A DNA stretch of 64,000 nt, taken from Boletus sp. NGJ. Lineage: Eukaryota; Basidiomycota; Agaricomycetes; Boletales; Boletaceae. The notes under the pieces are model-generated. The model searched no databases and was not told the DNA's origin. It saw only the letters and a list, made by a program, of their open reading frames with translations. Both the position numbers and the translations under genes were made by a program. Below are positions 26,755 to 33,405 of this stretch, one piece after another (within the stretch, counting starts at the first letter, position 1; every line of letters starts with the position of its first letter). The stretch covers positions 62,001-126,000 of the forward strand of contig JAGTXK010000219.1 in assembly GCA_019096195.1 (NCBI GenBank). Direction: 5' to 3'.

Positions 26755-29275
26755 ATGTCTTCCAACCCCGGTGCATTGAAGAACTTCGAGGAGTTCGAGA
26801 AGAACTTTCAACTCTCTGAACATTTCGAGGAGAAGCACGATTCGGACTCTTTCGGTGCAACAGACGGAGATGAGGCCTTGCAACTTGTCGGCGCTGAAGC
26901 CAAAGAACACTTCAGCGACGAGTTCAACAGAAAGCTTCGAAGGAAATTGGTGTGTAAATTCGGGGCGCTTCAAATATCGGTTTGTCAACGACGTATGGAC
27001 TCTAGGACTTCGTCATCCCAACGATATCTGCGGCAGTTTATTTCACTCAATTCCTGTACGCCCCACTACATGATCTCTACGTCGAAGGCACTCACTTGTA
27101 CTTGCTTATGTCTAGCGACAAGACTGCTCTTAACTATGCAAGGCGAGAAATAGCGTAAAATTCAACCAGTCCCATATTAAATTTTCATAGTATCATGGGC
27201 TTTCCCATCGTGGGCCAGGTGAAACGAAGCTTTTGTAGGTGCCATATCCATCGGCTTATCTTCCCTGCAGAACTACAACCTGGCATCCATGGCCTTTTAT
27301 CTCGGTAAAGCTGATCACCTTGTCTGCGCTTTCGTCTGACGGACGGTAGGGTTCCTTTTCTGGGAGTTTCCTACTGTGTACATTTCCCAGAAATTGAGAT
27401 TGGCCAAGTATCTGGGTAAGGATGCTGTCCGTCGGTCAAGACGTAATTGTTGATAGCGTCCAAGGCGTCAACATCGTTCTCTGGGGAGCACTGCTCATGC
27501 TGCACGCATCTACTAACAACTTCGGGGCTTTCTTTGCCCTCCGTTTCCTTCTGGGTATGTTGATTCAGTGATTTGCCGCTATTTACAATAATGCAATCGT
27601 TTCAGGCATGTGCGAGTCTTGCGTAGCCCCATGCTTGGTTTTGATCATATCCATGTTCTACAAGAAGGACGAGCAGGTTCGCTGAGATTCCCAAACCTCT
27701 GTGGGCACACAACTCATGACACGCGTAGGCCACAAGGATCTCGTGGTTTTATGTTATGGTCAGGGCATCACATACTAATTCTACAGACTCTCATCTATCT
27801 TCCCACAGAATGGCCTCACATCGATTTTTGGAGGTTTTGTCGCTTACGTTAGTCGAATGCATGACATTCGGCGACTTTGTTCACGACAGCATTGCAGGGT
27901 ATTTCATACTACGACGGCAAAGCTATTCCGACATACAAGATCGTTTACCTCCTCTTGGGCGGGTTGGCAATTGTCATCGGAATTATTGTTCTGATCGGGC
28001 TTCCTGATTCTCCTGTCCATGCTCGAATGCTCAGTAGAGAGGAGCGAATCGCCGCATTGGAACGCGTCCGTAATGATCAGGGAGGGACAGAAAACAAGAC
28101 TATCAAGAAAGAACAGATCAAGGAGGCCCTTACTGACATCAGGACTTGGTTGATGGTATTGTCGACGCTGCTCAGTATGTGCATCTTCTGACAATTCCTA
28201 TCACACTATTGACACATGTTTCAGCGAGTATTCCAAATGGCGCGCTGAGTAACTGTGGGGTGGACCATGACGGTCGAACTCAATAGAGTGCTGACTCTGT
28301 TGCTTTACCAGTCAGCAACATAGTCATCAAGAGCTTTGGATATACGTATGTCACTGCAGAAGCAACGAGTCAACCAGAGATCTGAATATGGATCTAGAAC
28401 AAAGCAAACGTTGATTCTCTCCACACCCACGGGCGCTCTCTTATCTGCAATGGTCCTCTTCTGTGGTTGGTATTCAGACAAGAAGGTGACGGCTTATGCA
28501 TTCTGTTAGTGTAACCGTGATTAACTGTTCTACTCAGAACGAGCGGATGACACCCATCGTCATCGCTTTAATACCCACTATCGTCGGTGCAGGTGAGCAA
28601 CAACGTTATGATGGCTGCTCTCTTTCGGTGCGATCCGTCTACCAGCGATCATGGTTGGTCTGCAAGGCAACGGGCACCACCAGGGCCCCGGCGTGCTCTT
28701 ATTTGGTAAAAACTGTGTTCTTCCCACATTGCACGTTTGTTGAGTCGATCCCCAGCATCATACTTGACGGGAACGTTTGGTAGTGCCTTGTCGACCATCT
28801 ATGCTTATAACGCCAGTAACACGAGTGGTCATACCAAAAAGGTCGATCGCCCATTCCTTTCTCATTCATTCTGATTCCTTATCGTGTCAAAAGGTTACGA
28901 TAAACGCGTTAACAATGGCGACCTTCAGTGTGGGTAACATCATCGGCACGGAGATTTTCCAACCAAAGGACGCCCCTGCATACATCCCGGGTAAGAGTGC
29001 AATCATGGCACTTCTAGCCGTGCAGATCTTCGTGTCCTACACCCTCCGTTGGGTCAACATTCGTTTGAACAAGCAACGCCAGAAGAAGTTGGCGGAAGAA
29101 AAGGTACGTCACGGATGGAGTGATGCGGATGTCCAGCGGGAAAGGGAACGACATGCGTTTGCCGATCTGACGGACAAACAGTGAGTGATGTTTTGTTTCA
29201 GCGTCACCTGGATGGGAATTTGATGGGAGTTTTTTTCCTCTCAAAAGGAACTTGTTCTTCGTATACACGGCATAG
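26755..29275 (+). CDS. MFS permease of the Dal5/anion:cation symporter family
   Basis: This is a predicted 12-span plasma-membrane transporter for an organic anion such as allantoate, nicotinate or a related carboxylate; the substrate is unknown. From ATG 26755 (MSSNPGALKNFEEFEKNF) more than ten short introns are removed. Landmarks are DFVIPTISAAVYFTQFL-DKTALNYAS, IMGFPIVGQNYNLASMAFYL, FLFWEFPTVYISQKL, VNIVLWGALLMLHASTNNFG, CVAPCLVLIISMFYKKDEQ, YYDGKAIPTYKIVYLLLGGL, LPDSPVHARMLSREER and VTINALTMATFSVGNIIGTE. One intron (27143-27190) appears to be GC-AG; using it gives the conserved NYAS-IMG junction. The C-terminus is QNLFFVYTA, stop 29273-29275. The gene seems intact. Confidence 0.86.
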
Positions 29276-29598
29276 TGTCATGTATTAACTGACGACTTCT
29301 GGCATAGTGCACACGGTAACTCGAGGTTTGGGAATCAGAACTGTGTACGGTGGTCTTACGAAATTCGATCACAAGTCATTCATCATCCAGTCTATGAAAC
29401 TTTATCACAACGTGAACAACACGAGAGCCGAGGCATCGTGGGTTGGGCCCGGCGTAGATAAAGCCCGACCCATATAGCACTTTCTCACCGTCACCATAGG
29501 CTCCCCTCCCTTTCACACCAACCATCCACTGCCTAGATCTTCAAGCCTGTTCAGCTTTAGTCCGTAACGAAAAGGGCTGAGTCATTATTCAATGAGAT
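29276..29598. other. Convergent intergenic region
   Basis: This is spacer between the 3' ends of the permease and the HMUDK-chromodomain gene. It is mixed composition and I see no open frame with coding character. Confidence 0.4.
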
Positions 29599-30943
29599 TC
29601 AAGAACATGCCCTACCTTGGACTGTCTTCAGATATGCACGAACGACGTCCGGTGCATCCTCTATGAGCGAACCCTCGGGTTCCCATGTAGCCTCGTCGTC
29701 AGGGTACCCCTTCCAAAGGACATGAAATTCTCGTACACCGTCCACCACCCGATGGCCCTTAATAGCCTCTATGATGAACTTCTCCAGGACTTCCGCCTCA
29801 GCCTCTTCCTGAGATTTGATTCGAAGGACGCCTCGGGATTTGTGTGACCAGGCCTTCGGGAGTCGCGGCTTGCCCAGGTTTCCACTCGGTCCGAATGCGC
29901 GACCCATGGATTTATTGGTGCACTTGCGTATATATTTGTCCAATTCGCATAGCGTGTGCTCGATGTCACAGAGCATCATGGGAAGGCAGTTGGGACCAAG
30001 CCCTTTAAACTCGATGCCCAAACGCTGGAAGTGTTCGTATTGCGTGATCAGCATCCATCGAACCATCTCAACTTCCACCGAGCGGGGGACGGTTTCACGG
30101 AAGCACCTCTGTAGCCCCCTCCTGGACCCGACACCTATCACAACGAAGTCGTACTCGGAAAAGTGAACGACGTCGGAATAGGACAAGTTCAAAATCAGCT
30201 GATAAGCAGTAAAATCGCCCATGCTTTTGAACGTCCGCAGGTACTCAAAGACGTCCGCCATATACTTTGCGTCTCGCAACTGGGCGGGCAATTCCTGCAT
30301 CAGGACCTCCAAGAATCCCAGGTGATTCATGAAATTTTCCGCGAATCCTAGTTCTGGCGCTGGTTTCTGATACGCTCCTGTGTAGATGGAAACCCCCCTG
30401 TTGTACAAGTCACGGAGGACCCTCTCGTAATTGGCGCGCTTATAGGCCTTCCAGGTGAATGGTTGGATATTTTCGCGCAAGGTCTCGTACGTCCGGATGC
30501 TGGTGTACGTGCTGAAGAGCAGGATGCGGAACGTGACTTCCTCGCGTCGTTGCGGACCCTTTTCAATGACTTCTGTCACGATATACTGGCTGACCCGGTC
30601 GAGGACCCGGAATGTATTGCAAAACTTGTAATTTGCAAGAATCGGGTCCGTCGTCCAGCTATCGCAACGATGTGTCAGACGCGAAAGCTTCTGGCTATGG
30701 CTTTACTTACGGAGGGGGGTGACCCGCGCGACGCTTTCCATCGATGGCATGCCTTTCGGCTGCCAACCGCCAAAAAGTGTCGAACACTGGGGTTGGTTCG
30801 TATTCTACCTCACGGAAAGTGAGGGTCATTGGAGGTGGAGCCGCGTTGCCAAAATGGAGTTGAGAACACGTCTTGGAGCGTTTGCTGCATCTCGACGTGT
30901 CACCGTCTTCGACGGCAGCAGCATCACGTTTTGTTCGTGACAT
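29599..30943 (-). CDS. 5-hmdU DNA kinase helical-domain (aGPT-PPlase-like) protein fused to a chromodomain
   Basis: Two exons (30943-30711, 30658-29599) give 430 residues. After a basic leader (MSRTKRDAAAVEDGD), residues of about 55-330 match the helical domain named HMUDK_hel: VFDTFWRLAAERHAI, DPILANYKFCNTFRVLDRVS, EKGPQRREEVTFRILLFSTY, GAYQKPAPELGFAENFMNHL, FKSMGDFTAYQLILNLSYSD and GLGPNCLPMMLCDIEHTLCE-LDKYIR. This domain is known from phage thymidine hypermodification systems and is widespread in basidiomycetes. A chromodomain follows at about 365-415: FIIEAIKGHRVVDGVREFHV then LWKGYPDDEATWEPEGSL, with an aromatic cage expected to bind methyl-lysine on histone tails. No P-loop kinase domain is present. 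It plausibly modifies or recognises bases in silent chromatin, which is inference. No transposase or reverse transcriptase lies nearby. Confidence 0.85.
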
Positions 30944-31161
30944 GGTTTTGGGAGCCTAGTAGCACGCGCGCTTAGAGCACGCGCACGATGTGGGATGTGC
31001 CCTACAAAACGACTCGTTGTCAGTAGACAAACTGTGCCTAAGCGAAACGGAGAGCCACCGCTACGATGTATTATAGTGTACGTAAAACTGGGACAAAGAT
31101 GTTGACATCCTTCCACCACCATCACCTGACATGAGATAGAACCTCACCAGCGACGCACAGA
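30944..31161. promoter_or_regulatory. Bidirectional promoter of the HMUDK-chromodomain gene and its partner
   Basis: These 218 bases lie between two divergent start codons. A direct repeat AGCACGCGC occurs twice (about 30960-30986), giving two ACGCG cores like those bound by MBF-type cell-cycle factors in fungi. No TATA box is obvious. Shared control is inferred from the layout. Confidence 0.45.
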
Positions 31162-33405
31162 ATGGACGGACAAGACAGGCGTCGATTTGTCCAGCAGTAC
31201 GTTGAACGACAGAAAGCCTATTTACCCACATATACCACCGAGCACCTTTTGAACGAACGCCATCGAACGCCGACCAAGCCGCTACGGAGTGATGAGTTTG
31301 GATTCGACACCCCTGTTCTTCGTCCACGGGTGCTAGAGAACAAGGCCGCTCAAACCCAGCTTACGCTGCAAGCGGGAGCGGGCAAGTCACGAACGCGCGG
31401 AGCCGAACCGGGTCCACTGTCGAACCAAGGTCCCGGACCTCCTCCCGCTCCACCACCTGGAGGAGCACCGTCGGCAGCTCAAGACACCGCTCCGAGCAAG
31501 AAGGACAAGTCGAGATTAAAACGAAAGAAAGCGTCGACCCCAATCGACAGCGATAACGAACGTGCGGCCAGTAGGTCACTCTCACGTGCTTAGGATCGCT
31601 ATCCGTTTGGGTTGAATACTTGCACGCAGGACTAGCGGATCGACGGGCGCGCAAGAGGAAGAAACGCGCCATCGTAAATCCTCCACAGAAGGACGACGAT
31701 GAAGTCGTGCCTGCTGCGGCCCCCAAAATAGGAAGGGCGAACGGCCAGAAAGCGAAGAAGCCCACCGCGTTGGCCCTTTTGTACGGATTTTCCGCTACGA
31801 ATGTCACCAAGGACAGGCTCACGGTTGGTCATTTATTGGATGTTGCGTTCCATGCTCTCATATGCTCGGCAGCTGAAACCCGCGCTTTCCCTTGGTGTTT
31901 TCAGCAAGGGGAAAGCGTCAGCGAAAAAAAAAGTAATTACACCGGGCAAGTCCGGTAAGTATCCTAATAATGTTACGGTCGGGAATGCACTGCTTAAGAA
32001 CACAGCATCGAGGAATGAGCTTTTCTCCGAATCCGCGTTCTTGAACAAGCCGAGTGAGCGGGTTGCTGACCATTCAAGGGTTGACGATGATTCGGATGAT
32101 AGCTCGGTTTCCTCGGTTTCTAACCACCTCATGCCCCGAGTCATCCGCACTGCGAACCGTACGAAGGAGGATCGAGCCAAATGTACCGAAACCCGCGCTG
32201 TGAAAACACCGAAGGCAGCCGCTCACGCAGTAACTGAATCAGAGGTTTGGGATATCGAAGTGCAGAGCAAACTTCCCTCCTCTGCGCGCGATGTTTCGAG
32301 CGACCCTGAAGCGCAAGAGTCTGCTCCCGTCGTGCTCGATCTCCGCGGGGCAGAGTGGGCAGTTTCTATCAACATGACGGAAGAACGTGAAGAACGCCGC
32401 GTCAAAGCCGGGACTCCGAGCCTGTCTGTCATCCGAAGCCGTTCAAGAGGACGTTCCGTAGTTTGCGGTTCCCCGCCAGCTATATCGGATATACTTGGTC
32501 TTCCTGCTCCATCGATCCATCCTTCTCACTCGGCATCTCAGGTAGGGCGACGTGCTGCTGACGTTGAACCCTCCGATCTGCGCCTAGCAACATCCAAGTA
32601 TTTCGCTGAACCCAAGCCAGCCACGGTCCAGGAGTTTACCGCACTTGCTCCACAGACACAAAGATCGAATGATGTCAGCGATGTATTTGATTCTCAAATC
32701 CCGGGTCAAGGCGTCGAGGACGTCATGACGGATGTACAGACGATTCAAAGAGTGGCTCCGTCGATGAGCTCCCTGATAGGTGTTCCGCAGCCGCCGGTAG
32801 AGTTCCAGACCCGGTACGAGAGCGACGGTTCCCCGTGGGACGATTGCTGCGCACGCGTGGATGTGCCTTGGGAGCCCCTTGGAGGACGCTATTTCGAGTC
32901 TTCTGTCTTGGAGGTCCCAGGTGGTCAGTCCATTGACAGCGCCGCTGAATATTGTCATTCTCACCAAAGCACCACCTGGGATTGGTGCCGACCTTGGCAC
33001 CACTCGGCTGATTTAACCACTGATGACATAGTGGATGTTCCCATGGAGGCTCTCCACGCTCCCTCCGATCTGTTGGCGGCTGTCGAACCTTGTTTTTTCG
33101 AGACACAGGCCGGGTACGACCCTGGAGAAGGACATTTTTCTGGGCAATGGTTTTGTATGGCTGAGACTGGACAGAATTTTCCTGCGTACGAAGATATGTC
33201 GTCGATTTGTGATAGCGAGGAAAGCTTGGACTATGGAGAGCCAGGAGAGGACGCGCCAGGCTTCTTGGAGGGACGAGCGCTATTACTCGGTGTCCCGGAG
33301 GACTACACGGAGAGGCCATGGTGTGCCAGACTGTCGGGACTGGATCAGGCAGAGATGGACGTTGCAAGCCGACTGCGGGATCACTGGCGCCCACTGCGAC
33401 TTTGA
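31162..33405 (+). CDS. Large disordered nuclear-type protein of unknown function
   Basis: I do not recognise this family. From ATG 31162 a compact N-terminal segment (MDGQDRRRFVQQYVERQKAY then LPTYTTEHLLNERHRTPTKP) looks ordered. A Pro/Gly/Ala linker and two lysine-rich stretches follow (SRLKRKKASTPI and RRARKRKKRAIVNPPQ), probable nuclear signals. Introns after 31570 and after 31821 are needed; a third, in frame and of 51 bases, probably lies at about 31956-32006. The rest is Ser/Glu-rich and disordered with short Trp-containing motifs (TTWDWCRPWHH), ending in a conserved-looking MDVASRLRDHWRPLRL at 33405. Total is near 680 residues. It shares a 218-base divergent promoter with the HMUDK-chromodomain gene, so a joint role is possible but unproven. 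Confidence 0.7.

Follow-up and report, generated by a model that had tools for sequence, protein, structure and literature searches.

Within a 64,000-nucleotide window of the Boletus sp. NGJ genome (contig JAGTXK010000219.1, positions 62,001 to 126,000), one gene joins HMUDK_hel, a domain known from thymine-modification systems of phages and bacteria, to a chromodomain, which reads methylated histones. The pairing suggests that the product deals with unusual DNA bases in silenced chromatin, though such an activity is putative and one otherwise invariant residue is changed. Both domains lie in exon 2 of the gene (Table 1), within the open reading frame (ORF) 29602-30702 (-), with no stop codon or intron separating them, and the fusion that the first-pass annotation had claimed is thereby confirmed. 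That annotation had proposed profile searches for each domain; run with hmmscan, PF18723 (HMUDK_hel) matches the ORF at 331.2 bits (E 6.8e-99, cut-off 25), covering profile positions 19-279 of 281, and PF00385 (Chromo) matches it at 48.9 bits (E 6.1e-13), above the Pfam cut-off. Profile positions 1-28 of HMUDK_hel are carried by exon 1, whose 22.2 bits are by themselves below the cut-off. A Pfam scan of the ORF at E up to 1 recovered no domain beyond these two, and hence no PF18724, a model that does match its control, a protein of phage SN1. In PHROGs the window protein matches phrog_2396, of unknown function (E 2.6e-41); a terminase-small-subunit identity from the same resource was set aside as a weak match (E 0.0028), and neither PADLOC nor NCBIfam gave a match.

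We defined the conserved residues by aligning the window protein with 96 loci of phages and bacteria (tblastn) and with 75 other sequences (MAFFT). R95, D98, F227, G253, G255, G259, C315, E316 and K319 are identical in 96/96 loci and in the window protein (tblastn), which also keeps R64, identical in all 89 of the 96 loci covering that position. The window thus retains 10 of the 11 strictly invariant residues; the remaining one, at position 235, is Asp in 96/96 loci (tblastn) and in all 75 other sequences (MAFFT), and is Asn in the window. Across the MAFFT alignment 32 of the 40 columns conserved at >=70% are kept. Position 186 is Lys in 72/75 sequences of that alignment and Asn in the window, though the tblastn alignments scatter there (22/96 Lys). 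The comparison thus points to a real member of the family that has lost one strictly invariant residue. Conservation of the residues of the phage enzymes, another element of the initial proposal, holds for ten positions and fails at D235. We read Asp235Asn as weakened or altered catalysis, the catalytic role of Asp235 being putative.

Two predicted models of HMUDK_hel agree on a DNA-glycosylase-like fold, which is also the one claimed for the PF18723/aGPT-PPlase1 family, and the predicted fold is common to a DNA-base transferase. A PDB profile search with the HMUDK_hel alignment returned one match, which is not credible at E 0.3. The gp46/PUGT 5-PmdU glycinyltransferase (8z2n; by its title an amino acid:DNA transferase) is 8% identical to the window protein, which matches PF18723 and not PF18724; the genome search found no PF18724 either. 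Identities to the queuine salvage enzyme DUF2419 and to HhH DNA glycosylases are 6-16%. The predicted fold and the TET/JBP matches in the genome (see below) would be consistent with a glycosylase-like enzyme of DNA repair or demethylation that removes TET/JBP-oxidised pyrimidines in silenced regions; in the excerpt of PMC8889193, oxidised methylcytosines are reported from two mushrooms and an excision mechanism for them is described as not yet discovered in fungi. However, the position of the catalytic Asp of HhH-GPD glycosylases, placed by eye from the alignment block rather than from superposed coordinates, reads G253-V254-G255 in the window, with both glycines present in 96/96 relatives. 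Moreover, the DNA that the phage relatives would serve has abundant modified T, and its excision would be harmful to the phage. We regard an excising enzyme as improbable.

The helical domain had been attributed to phage hypermodification pathways. Phage relatives do share it, but the nearest relatives appear from their sequences to be bacterial operon genes: the best match is from Methylotenera (36% identity, E 1e-53), and Enhygromyxa, Colwellia, Saccharibacteria and a gammaproteobacterium show 31-33% identity, the top-ranked of the 464 phage records matched by tblastn being at 30.4%. Scanning viral contigs with the alignment yielded 159 relatives among 180 stretches (80 of the 159 were kept), and scanning them with the single protein yielded 10 pattern-matching stretches, none a relative; in genome contigs 11 of 40 stretches found with the alignment are relatives. 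A tree of 77 HMUDK_hel domains splits 24 versus 53 (support 99/99) and places the window in the clade of 24 with the bacterial operon genes, Kuttervirus, a Nodularia phage and LuckyBarnes, with no exact sister resolved.

The phages M6, SN1, Kuttervirus SFP10 and LuckyBarnes (aGPT-PPlase1) share with the window the PF18723 domain and most of the invariant residues. The window protein differs from these in its fused chromodomain and Asn235, and no thymidylate synthase (TS), kinase or glycosyltransferase is encoded by the six neighbouring ORFs that we scanned. In SN1 the HMUDK_hel gene, annotated aGPT-PPlase clade 1, adjoins the P-loop kinase PF18748 and lies near genes for ADDT (PF18724), a pyridoxal phosphate (PLP) enzyme and a radical-SAM protein; in LuckyBarnes it adjoins genes for TS and a TET-associated glycosyltransferase. 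Glycosyltransferases of the TET-associated type occur close to HMUDK_hel at L003, L048, L070, L071, L076 and other loci. No kinase was found in the flanks of these loci, a hint that the phage DNA may carry glycosylated 5-hydroxymethyluracil (5hmU).

Gene neighbors were counted, with profiles built here, at 80 of the 96 loci, namely 27 of the window's clade (23 other tree rows and 4 duplicates) and 53 of the other; 11 loci lacking a called HMUDK_hel ORF, several of which have a kinase nearby, and 5 further duplicates were left out. The counts are lower bounds, because flank lengths vary and some contigs are short. A kinase occurs in the fetched flanks of 0/27 loci of the window's clade and 30/53 of the other, TS in 13/27 and 49/53, a glycosyltransferase in 4/27 and 16/53, ADDT in 1/27 and 22/53, and MazG_C in 4/27 and 0/53. 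The initial remark that no P-loop kinase is attached to the window protein fits its clade, since none of the 27 loci carries one in these flanks. The Pfam kinase model PF18748 matches in 4 of the 20 HMUDK_hel-carrying records tested, including Kuttervirus SFP10 of the window's clade, at a distance of about 48 kb. From the flank counts across both clades we infer that HMUDK_hel has a wider place in 5-hydroxymethyl-deoxyuridine systems than that of a partner of the kinase.

Published excerpts describe phage 5-hydroxymethyl-deoxyuridine (5hmdU) as being phosphorylated by a 5hmdU DNA kinase and then modified further (PMC7653180, PMC6449724), with lower transcription from phosphorylated 5hmU templates (PMC6457204); they list TS and aG/PT-PPlase1 as partner genes, sometimes with a glucosyltransferase and with bacterial orthologs separate from viral ones (PMC9599517), and a phage set of TET-like protein, aGPT-Pplase2 and kinase (PMC11955845). 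In the titles and abstract openings that we searched, no HMUDK_hel/aGPT-PPlase-chromodomain fusion is named, and the literature search found no activity reported for HMUDK_hel alone. The abstract of Iyer 2013 reportedly names basidiomycetes, and that study may describe the fusion.

Several of the bacterial relatives lie in an operon. At locus L126 the gene order is HTH, M78 peptidase, TS-like, HMUDK_hel and MazG with MazG_C; this order recurs in L128 and L130 (profiles built here, HTH by eye), MazG_C being confirmed by Pfam in L128. In L127 the operon is rearranged, with partners on the opposite strand (MazG_C by Pfam), and in L129 they are absent within its 17 kb. Among the operon proteins tested against PADLOC 2023 the peptidase alone matches, that of L126 hitting capP at E 2.6e-19. 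The TS-like proteins of L126 and L128 have no Pfam match; that of L126 matches TIGR03283 at E 7.1e-11, below that model's curated cut-off, and a phage-TS profile gave E 3.5e-4 for L126, 0.023 for L130, 0.068 for L128 and 4.7 for L127. The iterated TS-like profile may have drifted, and we do not rest TS kinship on it; a PDB profile search with the TS-like alignment gave no match. A DNA C5-methyltransferase gene adjoins the L126 operon. The operon HMUDK_hel proteins are the nearest sequences to the window's (31-36% identity), fall in the same clade of 24 and have no kinase in their flanks; in contrast to the window they keep the Asp and have no chromodomain.

As these nearest relatives lie in operons with a CapP-like peptidase and MazG/MazG_C, the fungal protein could derive by domestication from an immune-type operon of bacteria, sensing foreign or transposon DNA and directed to heterochromatin; aGPT-Pplase, MazG and MazG-C are listed among predicted defence domains, none of them validated, in the excerpt of PMC13092281. 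Yet the function of the bacterial operon is itself putative, its partners are not seen accompanying the gene in the fungus, and MazG_C was not found in a six-frame search of the genome that had no positive control; a defence role seems quite improbable.

The chromodomain aligns to HP1 (best 6asz_A, E 5.7e-10), and F372, W393 and Y396 of the window sit at the aromatic cage columns of that alignment, which we take to be the methyl-lysine cage. With these residues kept, it is competent-looking for methyl-lysine binding. It shares with HP1/CBX chromodomains the F/W/Y cage and the WKGYP..TWEPE core, but is joined to HMUDK_hel in a protein that gave no chromo shadow match with hmmscan. A separate chromo shadow (HP1) search, run without a positive control, also found none. 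Of 428 chromodomain candidates in the genome, 150 are scored matches; other chromodomain stretches are 28-43% alike to the window's over ~50 residues, the 146 among the matches listed being 30-43% alike. The source may be either an HP1-like gene or a retroelement, the scores for the two coming from different programs. The genome also encodes one Pre-SET domain, which is typical of H3K9 methyltransferases.

Possible partners were sought in six frames of the genome with introns unspliced, so that intron-cut genes can be missed. PF18748 gave no match at E up to 1. In searches without a positive control, PF18724 and PF18722 were not found. TET/JBP gave 25 matches, 18 above cut-off, 7 of these 18 being free of internal stops; the family is sizeable and partly decayed, the other 11 holding internal stops. 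There are five C5-methyltransferase matches, two with internal stops.

These observations bear on whether the protein could be a chromatin-directed writer, its helical domain catalysing a step of heterochromatic thymine or hydroxymethyl-pyrimidine modification, with TET/JBP providing 5hmU and an unrelated partner the rest. The ten invariant residues, the fold common to a DNA-base transferase and the TET/JBP matches would suit such an activity, as would relatives that adjoin TS-type genes and glycosyltransferases with no kinase, implying that the domain can stand kinase-free. In the excerpt of PMC12730594 fungal TET/JBP genes are borne by DNA transposons and TET-like activity on 5-methylcytosine is held the likely one, with action on thymine by some types not excluded. 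On the other hand, Asp235 is replaced, the Lys favored at position 186 by MAFFT (tblastn being unsettled there) is Asn, and PF18748 and PF18724 were not found. Asp235Asn and the lacking partners weaken this reading, and we consider it unlikely. The thymine-modifying activity initially proposed is not supported, as Asp235Asn and the missing PF18748 and PF18724 are accompanied by no pathway among the six neighboring ORFs; overall, the first interpretation is partly supported.

Our first choice, held tentatively and at less than an even chance, is a reader or adaptor of modified pyrimidines that is guided by chromatin. A single-copy host protein would be tethered by its chromodomain to histone H3 bearing a methyl mark, H3K9me being the most probable one. 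Its HMUDK_hel domain, with a DNA-glycosylase fold, would flip a pyrimidine that is oxidised, or 5-substituted in some other way, out of the DNA and recognise it, the first candidate ligands being 5hmU or a TET product. Because the Asp invariant in its relatives is Asn here, its catalysis would most likely be lost or altered, making it a reader or adaptor rather than a thymine writer. The gene, its two domains, the predicted fold, the cage residues, the Asp-to-Asn change and the finding of one copy are shown here; a role in the nucleus, the mark on the histone, the flipping of the base, its identity as ligand and the lack of catalysis are inferred. A more specific version, a histone-methylation-guided eukaryotic reader (or altered writer) of 5hmU or hypermodified thymine, acting at TET/JBP sites with a domain common to a bacterial immune-type operon, is in our view somewhat unlikely. 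Should HMUDK_hel prove to recognise thymine that is oxidised or hypermodified within silenced chromatin, fungi would possess a DNA-base mark beyond cytosine methylation that is read jointly with histone methylation. The gene also offers a route to learning the role of HMUDK_hel, as it encodes the domain with no kinase, transferase or hydroxymethylase and with an invariant Asp changed.

A decaying or chance fusion with no function is most improbable. D235N could be decay, and with one genome only selection is not measurable; nevertheless, the 430-codon gene is intact though its best relative is just 36% identical, its profile scores are strong, the cage residues are kept, and GC at codon positions 1/2/3 is 0.559/0.418/0.624, so that it looks coding. 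The splice is a prediction from sequence.

Table 1. Features of the fusion gene in the window and of the related bacterial operons
Feature	Position	Strand	Basis or remark
Fusion gene	29599..30943	-	430 aa, from the ATG at 30943 to a stop codon that ends at 29599; predicted splice
Exon 1: ATG, N-terminal region, first ~28 HMUDK_hel profile positions	30711..30943	-	splice model and profile
Predicted 52-nt intron, GTAAGT...CTGAC...TAG	30659..30710	-	in-frame join of HMUDK_hel positions 28 and ~29
Exon 2: remaining HMUDK_hel, chromodomain, stop codon	29599..30658	-	ORF, profile, splice model
HMUDK_hel domain (PF18723), split by intron	29908..30793	-	hmmscan
AAC codon, Asn235 (Asp in 96/96 phage and bacterial relatives)	30187..30189	-	tblastn alignments, MAFFT agrees
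Chromodomain (PF00385), cage residues F372, W393, Y396	29626..29778	-	hmmscan and HP1 alignment
HTH - M78/CapP-like - TS-like - HMUDK_hel - MazG/MazG_C operon	L126:5919-9892; L128:6106-9882; L130:6041-9837		
Rearranged version of operon	L127:7065-11680		

PF18723 has a single match in the 32.8 Mb genome, and the 2.8 kb surrounding the gene occur in one copy (search skipping simple repeats). The interval 28000-33000 holds three inverted pairs, all weak and 15-22 nt long, and none of them flanks the gene on both sides. A transposon gene was rejected on account of this single-copy stretch, the lack of a bracketing inverted pair and nearby host genes. The six neighboring ORFs scanned with Pfam comprise two thiolase pieces, one ATP_bind_1 and three with no match; thiolase and ATP_bind_1 are recognisable host genes ~4 kb and ~5 kb away. 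Two of the three unmatched ORFs probably belong, as exons, to a single gene with its start at 31162 (+). This divergent gene (31162-33405, +), two pieces of which were scanned without a Pfam match, has a Lys/Arg-rich stretch near its start and begins 218 bp from the ATG of the fusion gene, with which it possibly shares a promoter.
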